From an uncultured Cyclobacteriaceae bacterium (GTDB lineage: Bacteria > Bacteroidota > Bacteroidia > Cytophagales > Cyclobacteriaceae), in the NCBI GenBank assembly GCA_937146645.1, contig CAKZRQ010000013.1, positions 62,001 to 126,000 of the forward strand: a stretch of DNA of 64,000 nt, given 5' to 3'. Positions 32,309-52,314 of the stretch are shown here, in pieces (the first letter of the stretch is position 1; every line of letters starts with the position of its first letter). The notes under the pieces were generated by a model that saw only the letters and a program-made list of their open reading frames with translations, searched no databases and was not told where the DNA came from. The position numbers and the translations under genes were made by a program.

Positions 32309-32388
32309 CAGGTTTCTATACAGCCCTCATTTGAGCCATTAATATAAATCCCAAGGAGGCTTCAAAGCTATGGGCTAGCTTTGTGGGA

Positions 32389-49238: not shown

Positions 49239-49291
49239 ATCCCTTGATTTAATTCTTCTGCCAGCTAGCCAAAAGCATAAAAGTTAAAATT

Positions 49292-49312
49292 AAATACTAC
49301 ATAATAGTATTT
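49292..49312. promoter_or_regulatory. Perfect palindrome, probable PadR operator 1
   Basis: AAATACTA-CATAA-TAGTATTT: two 8-base arms (49292-49299 and 49305-49312) are exact reverse complements with a 5-nt spacer. It lies 49-69 bases upstream of the PadR ATG, with its centre 44 nt from a second copy. PadR proteins bind such dyads with TACT/AGTA half-sites. Confidence 0.7.
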
Positions 49313-49335
49313 ATCAAAATCCTTTTCTACATTCG

Positions 49336-49356
49336 TAATACTATTTTGTAGTATTA
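49336..49356. promoter_or_regulatory. Perfect palindrome, probable PadR operator 2
   Basis: TAATACTA-TTTTG-TAGTATTA: two exact 8-base arms (49336-49343 and 49349-49356) with a 5-nt spacer. It shares the ATACTA/TAGTAT half-sites and spacer length with operator 1. It ends 4 nt before the PadR start codon, so binding would block transcription or be part of the leader. Confidence 0.7.
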
Positions 49357-49360
49357 GGAT

Positions 49361-49699
49361 ATGAAGCAGTTCCAATTAGGTGAATTTGAAGAGGTGGTAT
49401 TACTCACAGTGGGGATTCTACATGGCAATGCCTATGGTGTAACCATCAGAGATGAAATCGAAACCAGACTTTCCCGGAAGGTTAGTGTTGGCGCATTGCA
49501 AACCACCTTAAGAAGGTTAGAAAAAAAGGGATTCCTCGAATCAAATCATGGAGATAGCTCTCAATCCAGAGGCGGTAGACCTAAGCTTTTCTTTACTCTG
49601 ACGGCTGAGGGCAAAAAGGCTTTGGACTATGTGAAAGAAAGCCGAAATCAACTCTGGGGAGCTTTGCCGGAGGCCATAATCAACCTTTCCTTCTCATGA
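49361..49699 (+). CDS. PadR-family transcriptional regulator
   Basis: Winged-helix DNA-binding protein of 112 residues, a short PadR type. The pattern is clear: FEEVVLLTVGILHGNAYGVTIRDEIE and SVGALQTTLRRLEKKGFLES (recognition helix and wing), then the GGRPKLFFTLTAEG wing motif. The C-terminal helix mediates dimerisation. The two perfect palindromes immediately upstream imply autoregulation. It overlaps the permease gene by 4 nt (ATGA); this PadR-permease pairing is common in Bacteroidota. Confidence 0.93.
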   Translation: MKQFQLGEFEEVVLLTVGILHGNAYGVTIRDEIETRLSRKVSVGALQTTLRRLEKKGFLESNHGDSSQSRGGRPKLFFTLTAEGKKALDYVKESRNQLWGALPEAIINLSFS

Positions 49700-52314
49700 G
49701 CTCGCCTACCCCACCAAAGTTCATCCTTCGATTTCTGAAATGGTTCTGTAAACCTGAATATCATCTCGACATTGAAGGAGACCTCTTGGAATTTTATGAA
49801 CGCAATGTAGAAGAATTAGGAAGGCGAAAGGCCAACCTCCGGCTTTACAAAGATGTGTTTCTGCTCTTCCGTCCGTCCATGATGAGAAGTATCAGCTTTG
49901 GGGTACCCCATCTTCAGCTCAGCCTCCTAGCAAATTATTTTAAAGTAAGCTGGAGAAGCATCATGAGTCAAAAGCAATATAGCTTCTTCAATGTGGCCGG
50001 ACTGGTTTTTGGAATTACCTGTTTCATCCTTGTATCCATTTTTGTTTCCCACGAGCGATCCTTCGATAGATTCTATGAGAATGTGGACAATATTTATCAT
50101 GTGTATGAATATGAATATGCGGAAGAGGCCTACCTGGGCTCTGAATACTATGCCGTAACTCCGGCACAAATGGCCTCTGCCTTGATGGCTGACTATCCGG
50201 AGGTAGAATATGCCACAACCCTTACTGAAGATTATGCCTTACTCACACATGAAAATCGTGATCCCTGGTATGAAAAAGGGCTTTTTACAGACTCTACCTT
50301 TTTCAAAGTTTTTTCCCATCCCAAATTCAATGAAGGTAGCGCAGAAACAGCCTTTCTAAATCTCAGAAGCATCATCCTGACTCAATCTCTAGCCGATAAA
50401 ATGTTTCCTTCCAGCGGAGCCATGGGCCAAACACTGACCTATAAGGATGAGCCCTATCTGGTAACCGGGGTCGTCATGGATCCTCCGCTAAATAGTACCT
50501 TTCAGTTTTCTTTTATCGCAAATCTTCAAGATGATGAACGATATCTAAGTGAGTTCAAAAAAGAGAGATGGGACGGTAGTAATTACTACACCTTTTTCTC
50601 CATGAACCCTTCCGCAGATCCAGAATCGCTCGAGCAAAAACTGCCGGAAGTAATCGAAAAATACTGGACTACGGACGGCACATTTCATTTCGACTATTTA
50701 ATCCAGCCATTTGCAGCACATCACTTTAATTCGAATACCAATAATGATCTTGGGAAGAAAGGGAGCATGCAGCAAATCATTCTCTTCCTTACGGTTTCCA
50801 TTCTTATTCTGATCCTTGCTGGAATCAATTATGTGAATCTTTCCATCGCCCGTTCCATGATTCGGATTAGAGAAGTCGGGATTAGAAAGTCCTTCGGTGC
50901 TGGGAGAAGACAACTGGTTTTCCAATTCCTTCTCGAATCAGAGCTCTTGGCAGTGATGGCATTCGTGGTATCTCTCGTCATCGCCAAAATACTCCTCCCC
51001 TATTTTGGGATGAGTCTCGACAGAGAACTGACCTTTAACCTATTTAACAATTTCAGCTTGCTTCTGATGCTTTTCGGCATAATTCTTCTCTTGGGGCTTG
51101 CCGCAGGAATTTATCCAGCTTGGGTGATCTCTTCAGCCTCCACTACACAGATCATTAAGGGAAGGTCTCAGGATAATACTCAAGGCAAAGGAACACAGCA
51201 ATGGTTGGTGATTTTTCAGTATTCGGTTTCAATAGCCATGGTCATCTGCACCATTATCATCTACCAGCAATTCCAGTTCATTAGCAATAAAGAGTTGGGG
51301 TTTGAGCAAGATCAGATCCTCACTCTGGAGGTACGTGACATGGATATCCTCCGAAATTATAACACCATTAAAGCGGAGCTCCTTGCGAATCCAGATATAA
51401 TTGGAGTTGGAACCTCTCAGAATCTACCTCATGACGTCCGGTCGGGAACGACTGTCAATGACGATGAAGGAGGTGATCCCGGGGATGATCTCTCGATTTA
51501 CAGACTTCGGGCAGATCACGATTTTATTGACATCTACCAGCTCGAAGTGGTGGCAGGTCGAAGCCTTCCTGAAATTCCAGTGAAAGGCAAAAATCTGGAA
51601 TGCCTCATCAATGAATCCGCTGCCGAAGCTCTAGGCTTCAGCCCTCAGGAGGCCATCGGCCAAATTTTAACAGACGATACTCCTCCAAGTCAATATCGAA
51701 CCATCATCGGCGTGGTCAAGGATTTTCATCAACATGGTCTTCATCTGGAAATCAGTCCAATGCTGGTAGAATACCGACCGTTTTTCGAATACATCTCGGT
51801 AAAAGCTAATTCTCAGGATATTCCGGGGCTAATTGAATACATGGATAAAACCATCAAAAAACACAGCGAGTACCCGGTCAATTTCAGATTCATGGATGAT
51901 AGAGTGAATCAGCTTTATGCTGGGGAACAGAAAAAAGCCAGCTTATTCAGCGGATTGAGCTTGCTCACCATCATCATTGCTACACTCGGTCTCTATGGGT
52001 TGGCAGCTCTGAATGCACATCAAAAAGTAAAGGAAATTGGAATTCGAAAGGTTCTTGGGGCATCCATTTCCAGTATTCTCATTTTTACATCCGGGAATTT
52101 CCTAAAGTTGATTGCAGGTGGATTTCTCATCTCCATCCCCATTGCCTGGTACGCCATGCAGCAGTGGTTAGAAAACTATGCCTATCGAATTGATATCAAT
52201 TGGCTGACTTTTGCCCTGGTTGGGCTTGGGGCCATGCTCATCGCTTTGCTGACGGTAGGAAGCCAGTCCATAAAAGCCGCGATCGTGAATCCAGTAGATT
52301 GTATTCGGGATTAA
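49696..52314 (+). CDS. FtsX/MacB-type ABC permease with N-terminal prefix domain
   Basis: Inner-membrane protein of 872 residues. The N-terminal segment (about 1-85, FLKWFCKPEYHLDIEGDLLEFYERN) is the permease-prefix domain typical of transporters paired with PadR. A first transmembrane helix (about 95-115) leads to a periplasmic MacB-PCD domain (about 120-350). Three TM helices (FtsX domain, about 355-500), a second MacB-PCD region and a final FtsX domain (740-872) follow. It should work with an ATPase, but none is encoded nearby. Probably involved in resistance/efflux or lipoprotein handling under PadR control. Confidence 0.9.
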   Translation: MSSPTPPKFILRFLKWFCKPEYHLDIEGDLLEFYERNVEELGRRKANLRLYKDVFLLFRPSMMRSISFGVPHLQLSLLANYFKVSWRSIMSQKQYSFFNVAGLVFGITCFILVSIFVSHERSFDRFYENVDNIYHVYEYEYAEEAYLGSEYYAVTPAQMASALMADYPEVEYATTLTEDYALLTHENRDPWYEKGLFTDSTFFKVFSHPKFNEGSAETAFLNLRSIILTQSLADKMFPSSGAMGQTLTYKDEPYLVTGVVMDPPLNSTFQFSFIANLQDDERYLSEFKKERWDGSNYYTFFSMNPSADPESLEQKLPEVIEKYWTTDGTFHFDYLIQPFAAHHFNSNTNNDLGKKGSMQQIILFLTVSILILILAGINYVNLSIARSMIRIREVGIRKSFGAGRRQLVFQFLLESELLAVMAFVVSLVIAKILLPYFGMSLDRELTFNLFNNFSLLLMLFGIILLLGLAAGIYPAWVISSASTTQIIKGRSQDNTQGKGTQQWLVIFQYSVSIAMVICTIIIYQQFQFISNKELGFEQDQILTLEVRDMDILRNYNTIKAELLANPDIIGVGTSQNLPHDVRSGTTVNDDEGGDPGDDLSIYRLRADHDFIDIYQLEVVAGRSLPEIPVKGKNLECLINESAAEALGFSPQEAIGQILTDDTPPSQYRTIIGVVKDFHQHGLHLEISPMLVEYRPFFEYISVKANSQDIPGLIEYMDKTIKKHSEYPVNFRFMDDRVNQLYAGEQKKASLFSGLSLLTIIIATLGLYGLAALNAHQKVKEIGIRKVLGASISSILIFTSGNFLKLIAGGFLISIPIAWYAMQQWLENYAYRIDINWLTFALVGLGAMLIALLTVGSQSIKAAIVNPVDCIRD

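Follow-up and report, generated by a model that had tools for sequence, protein, structure and literature searches.

In the window, the whole 64-kb stretch of DNA that was analysed, a gap of 122 bp separates a 904-codon reading frame from a padR gene. Two perfect dyads are located inside this gap, and the locus comprises the following features.

49292..49312, no strand: operator 1, a perfect 8+5+8 dyad AAATACTA-CATAA-TAGTATTT with the core TACTA-CATAA-TAGTA, kept in the orthologues L038, L039 and L119.
49328..49335, plus strand: putative -7 box TACATTCG, TAnnTTTG with one mismatch.
49336..49356, no strand: operator 2, a perfect 8+5+8 dyad TAATACTA-TTTTG-TAGTATTA with the core TACTA-TTTTG-TAGTA.
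49340, plus strand: predicted transcription start, placed from the -7 box and lying inside site 2.
49361..49699, plus strand: padR, encoding a small PadR-type winged-helix repressor of 112 amino acids with Thr49 in the predicted recognition helix (43-55).
49696..52314, plus strand: permease gene, encoding 872 amino acids with prefix domain 2 (residues 6-64), MacB_PCD and FtsX domains, and overlapping padR by 4 bp (ATGA).

The padR product scored 41.6 bits with PF03551, above the gathering cut-off of 27. An AlphaFold model built with 40 aligned sequences (mean pLDDT 90.6) has helices at residues 8-20, 26-37 and 43-55, wing strands at 59-63 and 76-80, and a C-terminal helix at 82-100. A fold search against the PDB with this model ranked PadR structures at the top, and the predicted architecture, a winged helix-turn-helix plus a C-terminal helix in about 110 residues, is that of the small PadR subfamily. 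The permease was recognized by NF038404, which describes transporters with permease prefix domain 2 (51.9 bits over residues 6-64, cut-off 35). A Pfam search of its residues 1-96, up to E = 10, matched no family.

The window's own genome contains four matches to this PadR and four prefix-2 permeases, which form four adjacent pairs. Among relatives, a same-strand permease gene directly followed padR at 160/162 loci with enough sequence; 5 further loci with too little sequence were left out of this count. PadR genes are strongly multiplied in some genomes of the family (G355, G262, G359, G346, G152 and others), where a single genome gave as many as 79 first-look candidates, 12 of those scored. 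In Acidobacteria, PadR proteins of TIGR03433 are paired with ADOP permeases of TIGR03434, and these pairs share with the window pair a PadR and a duplicated FtsX/MacB_PCD permease. The window's PadR scored 36.4 bits with TIGR03433, far under the curated cut-off of 101.8, and its permease scored 256.9 bits with TIGR03434, far under the cut-off of 622.3.

The initial annotation reported two perfect 8+5+8 palindromes upstream of padR, 44 bp apart from centre to centre, with the second ending 4 nt before the ATG. Direct reading bore this out: the centres are at 49302 and 49346, and 4 nt separate the end of the 49336-49356 dyad from the ATG at 49361. Half-sites and spacers had both been described as identical. 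The inner six bases of the half-sites (ATACTA/TAGTAT) are the same in both dyads, and the spacers agree in length (5) while differing in sequence (CATAA and TTTTG). On the minus strand the core of the second dyad reads TACTA-CAAAA-TAGTA, the same type as the first in inverted orientation. When the 122-bp gap was shuffled 20,000 times with its dinucleotide composition preserved, at least one perfect 8-N5-8 dyad arose in 139/20,000 shuffles and two arose in 0/20,000. Four perfect 8-N5-8 dyads occur across the 64-kb window, the padR promoter pair included; the other two, at 2528-2548 and 32363-32383, read GTTTTTACATTTCGTAAAAAC and CAAAGCTATGGGCTAGCTTTG.

A genome search for the dyad had been proposed as a way to define a regulon. 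Across the 4.3-Mb genome ATACTA-N5-TAGTAT was found at the padR promoter pair only, with no third copy. The looser TACTA-N5-TAGTA gave one extra copy, and the reversed control pattern gave 12 genomic matches. This extra copy sits inside a 447-codon reading frame, and no wider regulon for the exact N5 dyad was found in the genome. The family-typical operator ATGT-N8-ACAT, which is no part of the Pfam definition of PadR, was also looked for; direct reading found no ATGT within 49239-49360, where TACTA-N5-TAGTA stands instead.

The operator footprint was followed in relatives using loci from whole-genome searches, one scan of named genomes, and fetched stretches. Loci with the same upstream DNA and protein as an earlier locus were dropped as duplicates. 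This rule cut the first set to 174 loci, removed 34/100 loci from a first test set and 32/74 from a second, and left 282 loci in all (174 + 66 + 42). Little was gained from a phylum-wide search, which at E <= 1e-30 had matches in 5/395 genomes, counting that of the window. Exact dyads were present in 6/58 genomes of the first relatives scan, again including the window's own. In the first 110 loci the motif AATACTACAATTAGGAATTA occurred 143 times in 90 loci, compared with 0 occurrences in shuffles and 2 on the opposite strand. A weight matrix for the N5 operator fell into two registers 3 nt apart, so an explicit half-site pattern was used, TMCTA plus TAGKA with at most one mismatch. With this pattern the 174 upstream regions contained 156 sites with spacer 4, 71 with spacer 5, 10 with spacer 3 and 2 with spacer 6, while shuffled regions contained 7.6-8.3 of each spacer per shuffle.

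Two operator forms were thereby distinguished, TACTA-N4-TAGGA, which is asymmetric and an imperfect dyad, and TACTA-N5-TAGTA, which is a true palindrome. Absence of the dyads from orthologous loci was to count against the initial annotation, and they proved to be conserved upstream of padR there: two dyads with spacer 5 are present in the window and likewise in each near orthologue, L038, L039 and L119 (82-85% identical). The operator class was determined solely on the DNA, which was possible at 209/282 loci, and shuffled upstream regions received a class in 13/282. Tandem operators were found at 104/282 loci, counting only pairs at 36-49 bp, so that more extreme spacings are missed. Another 110/282 loci have operator matches without a tandem pair, and two sites are therefore not needed throughout the family.

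The space between the tandem sites was examined for a promoter. The Bacteroidetes -7 element, TAnnTTTG, is located at -12 to -5 according to the available text of PMC9723704, and the putative box of the window has counterparts in L038, L039 and L119 (TACATTAG, TACCTTAG and TATCTTAG, respectively) at a distance from site 1 that is equal or 2 bp shorter. From the start predicted by this box, operator 1 would extend from about -48 to -28, in the -33 region, and operator 2 from about -4 to +17, over the start. No clear -33 TTTG was seen in the window's padR promoter. TAnnTTTG with up to one mismatch was located 24-27 bp past the centre of site 1 in 52/104 tandem loci, which points to bracketing of a promoter by the two sites; in 200 rounds of shuffling the bases between the sites, the mean was 8.4 and the maximum 16. 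It was located 18-19 bp ahead of the centre of site 2 in 40/104 (shuffles mean 4.7, maximum 12), and at both distances in 38/104. The other 52/104 tandem loci have no such box at the usual distance from site 1, and 28/104 have none with up to one mismatch anywhere between the sites. A subclass with 39-bp spacing (L148 and its kin) is among the loci with an unclear -7 box.

The initial annotation had taken the 44-bp distance, about four helical turns, as a sign that two PadR dimers cooperate on one DNA face, a phase that selection would then keep. The near orthologues, at 44, 44 and 42 bp, are consistent with this, as is the N4 class, in which 42 and 43 bp are the commonest distances (together 43/75 pairs). 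Taken together, the 104 pairs have distances that are unevenly spread round the helical turn (Rayleigh R 0.41, from sequences that are related). The full range of distances argues otherwise. N4 pairs span 37-47 bp (75 pairs, mode 43) and N5 pairs span 39-49 bp (29 pairs, mode 39). The individual N5 distances are 39 bp (11 pairs), 40 (2), 41 (1), 42 (6), 43 (2), 44 (5), 47 (1) and 49 (1), one of the 39-bp pairs being double-counted because L130b and L130 are one pair viewed from two neighbouring genes. Both ranges cross half a helical turn, about the difference between 39 and 44 bp, and thus speak against conservation of the phase. In the wide-spaced loci L124 (47 bp) and L271 (49 bp), site 1 stays 26 bp from the -7 box and site 2 alone moves. 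The precedent of LmrR can be read both ways: multiple dimers may bind PlmrR cooperatively in the portion of PMC4534193 available, but 1:1 and 2:1 complexes coexist, unlike those of the strongly cooperative QacR, in that of PMC5428041. Helical-phase cooperativity was rejected on the spacing data as the cause of the 44 bp, and we consider selection for a one-face arrangement unlikely.

The form of the operator was compared with the protein sequence encoded by the padR gene beside it. Among the first 129 loci with an assigned class, alignment column 49 was Thr at 37/37 N5 loci and Ala, Cys or Ser at 92/92 N4 loci. This prediction was written down before further loci were fetched. The first test set was planned as the first 100 unfetched matches by rank; three of these were skipped, of which one lay at the edge of a contig, another contained an internal stop and the third was a late match, and two matches from another search and one lower-ranked match filled it up. 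Among its 66 new loci, Thr49 went with N5 in 3/3 classified cases, while the 63 Ala/Cys49 loci comprised 42 N4, 21 unclassified and 0 N5. The second test set of 42 loci contained 33 Ala49 loci with N4, 3 Ala49 loci without a class, 1 Ala49 tie, and unclassified loci with Cys49 (1), Val49 (3) and Thr49 (1). Thr49 loci were thus few in both test sets, 3/66 in the first and 1/42, unclassified, in the second.

Over all 282 loci there were 40 N5, 169 N4, 72 without a class and 1 tie (L338). Thr49 was present in 40/40 N5 loci and Ala, Cys or Ser49 in 169/169 N4 loci. Column 49 was the only error-free column of 112, the next best having 8 errors. The rule leaves some loci aside. An N5 site is absent at three Thr49 loci (L045b, L188 and L296, 44-53% identical). 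Looser matching of the 41 unclassified Ala/Cys49 loci gave spacer 3 as best in 18, nothing in 8, spacer 4 in 5, spacers 3 and 4 tied in 3, spacer 5 in 3, spacer 6 in 3, and spacers 3 and 5 tied in 1. Since spacer 4 is not preferred, these loci appear to carry other, diverged or no operators. PadRs with Val49 (L169, L171-L174, L295, L298 and L366) have another operator, approximately TTAACTACATTTAAGGTAAA, which is tandem in some.

In a tree built without column 49, operator class and Thr49 each need three changes, two of which are forced by well supported branches. The N4/Ala49 loci L177, L180 and L183, 68-72% identical to the window's PadR, lie inside the Thr49 clade (96% support), and L271, with Thr49 and N5, lies inside a clade that is otherwise N4 (97% support). 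The number of independent pairs backed by good branch support is two, which is not enough for a sign test.

Residue 49 lies midway along the predicted third helix (43-55). The third helix is the recognition helix of small PadR proteins in the available text of PMC3506622, which also proposes Tyr46 and Arg51 of the recognition-helix motif as DNA contacts; aligned by eye, these correspond to Gln47 and Arg52 of the window's PadR. Thr49 may contact DNA or shift the helix. By helical-wheel reckoning the residue occupies the margin of the surface that faces DNA and may therefore act indirectly. The spacer and the right half-site (TAGGA to TAGTA) mostly change together, and for this reason the two cannot be separated as the target of residue 49. 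Tentatively, and with rather less than even confidence, we suggest that a change from Ala to Thr at position 49 switches the operator from N4 to N5, and that repeated switches, together with Val49 and other forms, would insulate from one another the paralogous, self-repressing modules of PadR and permease that a genome may contain by the dozen.

Both operator forms were found in 10/17 genomes examined (G359, G091, G355, G273, G152, G349, G210, G191, G446 and G241), each beside a PadR with the residue 49 expected for it. This coexistence links the operator to the PadR encoded beside it rather than to the host, and it is mainly for this reason that we favour autoregulation. The same observation bears on whether the dyads serve another regulator, such as a repressor of the BlaI or GntR type, with padR merely nearby. 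The left half TACTAC resembles operators of BlaI-type repressors, and this would speak for such a regulator. However, the operator form tracks the PadR and not the organism, and residue 49 fits 209/209 classified loci, which makes another regulator very improbable. It is less probable still that the second dyad forms a hairpin in the leader RNA that blocks translation or causes attenuation: the dyad lies at the extreme 5' end of the predicted transcript near the ATG and a 5-bp stem is predicted, but the predicted fold of the leader does not exceed shuffles in stability (z = +1.1, with 180/200 shuffles at least as stable), on which ground this reading was rejected, in relatives the N4 form makes no more than an imperfect dyad, site 1 would stay outside the transcript, and site 2 starts anywhere from 17 to 99 bp before the ATG (L130b left out) while the two-site arrangement is kept.

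The dyads are therefore best read as operators of the downstream PadR that bracket a sigma-A promoter, with padR and the permease gene forming one autorepressed, signal-released operon; we assign this reading a probability of about 0.88. Autorepression of the padR promoter is well supported by the sequence comparisons. Joint control of padR and the overlapping permease gene, as the initial annotation had it, survives as the best reading, since the dyads are conserved, their form tracks the PadR and the permease gene is directly downstream. We infer PadR binding, repression and co-transcription at this locus, together with the start site and the inducing signal. In the proposed mechanism a PadR dimer at site 1 would cover the -33 region and a dimer at site 2 would cover the transcription start, so that both together would bracket and occlude the sigma-A promoter whose putative -7 box, TACATTCG, lies between them. 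The padR and permease genes would be expressed as a single operon whose expression is self-limited. Either a ligand or a signal sent by the cytoplasmic prefix domain of the permease would inactivate PadR and so release the operon.

Precedents for both kinds of inducer can be found. A ligand in the PadR dimer is a possible inducer, as in LmrR, which in the available text of PMC5428041 and PMC4534193 represses lmrCD and its own gene, with two dimers on one operator. LmrR of Lactococcus lactis is likewise a small PadR (PadR-s2). Its operator is ATGT-N8/10-ACAT, in contrast to TACTA-N4/5-TAGKA in the window's PadR group, and LmrCD is a heterodimeric ABC exporter, whereas the window encodes a prefix-domain FtsX permease. 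A signal from the prefix domain is suggested by the HAAS-PadR pairs, in which, in the available text of PMC11237479, a stand-alone PadR lies beside a membrane-linked partner proposed to signal to it, and some partners have FtsX-like transmembrane and MacB/PCD domains. The prefix of the window's permease differs in being perm_prefix_2, with its residues 1-96 lacking a Pfam match. LftR, also a small PadR, has a partly palindromic site in its own promoter region (PMC6457526, available text), and autorepressing PadRs exist in Listeria (PMC6624303, available text). The targets of the Listeria repressors, LftR among them, differ from that of the window's PadR. Binding by LftR was weakened or lost on changing Tyr28, Tyr48, Leu69 or Lys9; the equivalent of Tyr48 in the window's PadR, by eye, is Gln47.

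The proposed autoregulation is of an ordinary kind, and what appears to be new is an operator code tied to residue 49. In the open-access literature that was searched, neither an operator for prefix-domain PadR-permease pairs nor such a residue rule was found. The footprint supplies an operator that can be tested, a layout for the promoter and a means of predicting from a single residue the operator that a PadR will read. Such a rule is needed for working out how many similar repressors avoid cross-talk.

The window's locus belongs to the tandem layout, and other promoter layouts were seen in relatives. In a second layout (L009-L017, L055, L059, L061, L066, L067 and others) there is one operator with approximately TTTGGCA(C/T)AATTATT just upstream. 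TGGC(A/G) starting 9-29 bp ahead of the operator was found at 55/110 non-tandem loci, 38 of them at exactly 15 bp, versus 1/104 tandem loci. A GTTC/GAAC-like dyad was present 20-140 bp further upstream in 34/46 loci with TGGC(A/G) at 13-17 bp, an uncontrolled count. This second layout looks like a sigma-54 promoter accompanied by an enhancer site, with the operator placed where a repressor would block it; the usual GC at -12 of sigma-54 promoters was not seen in it. A single match to rpoN is present in the window's genome. A more distant PadR group (L184 in the window's own genome, L020-L028, L193 and L194) has an inverted pair, approximately TTTACAAATATGAA ... TTCATATTTGTAAA, and not a tandem one.
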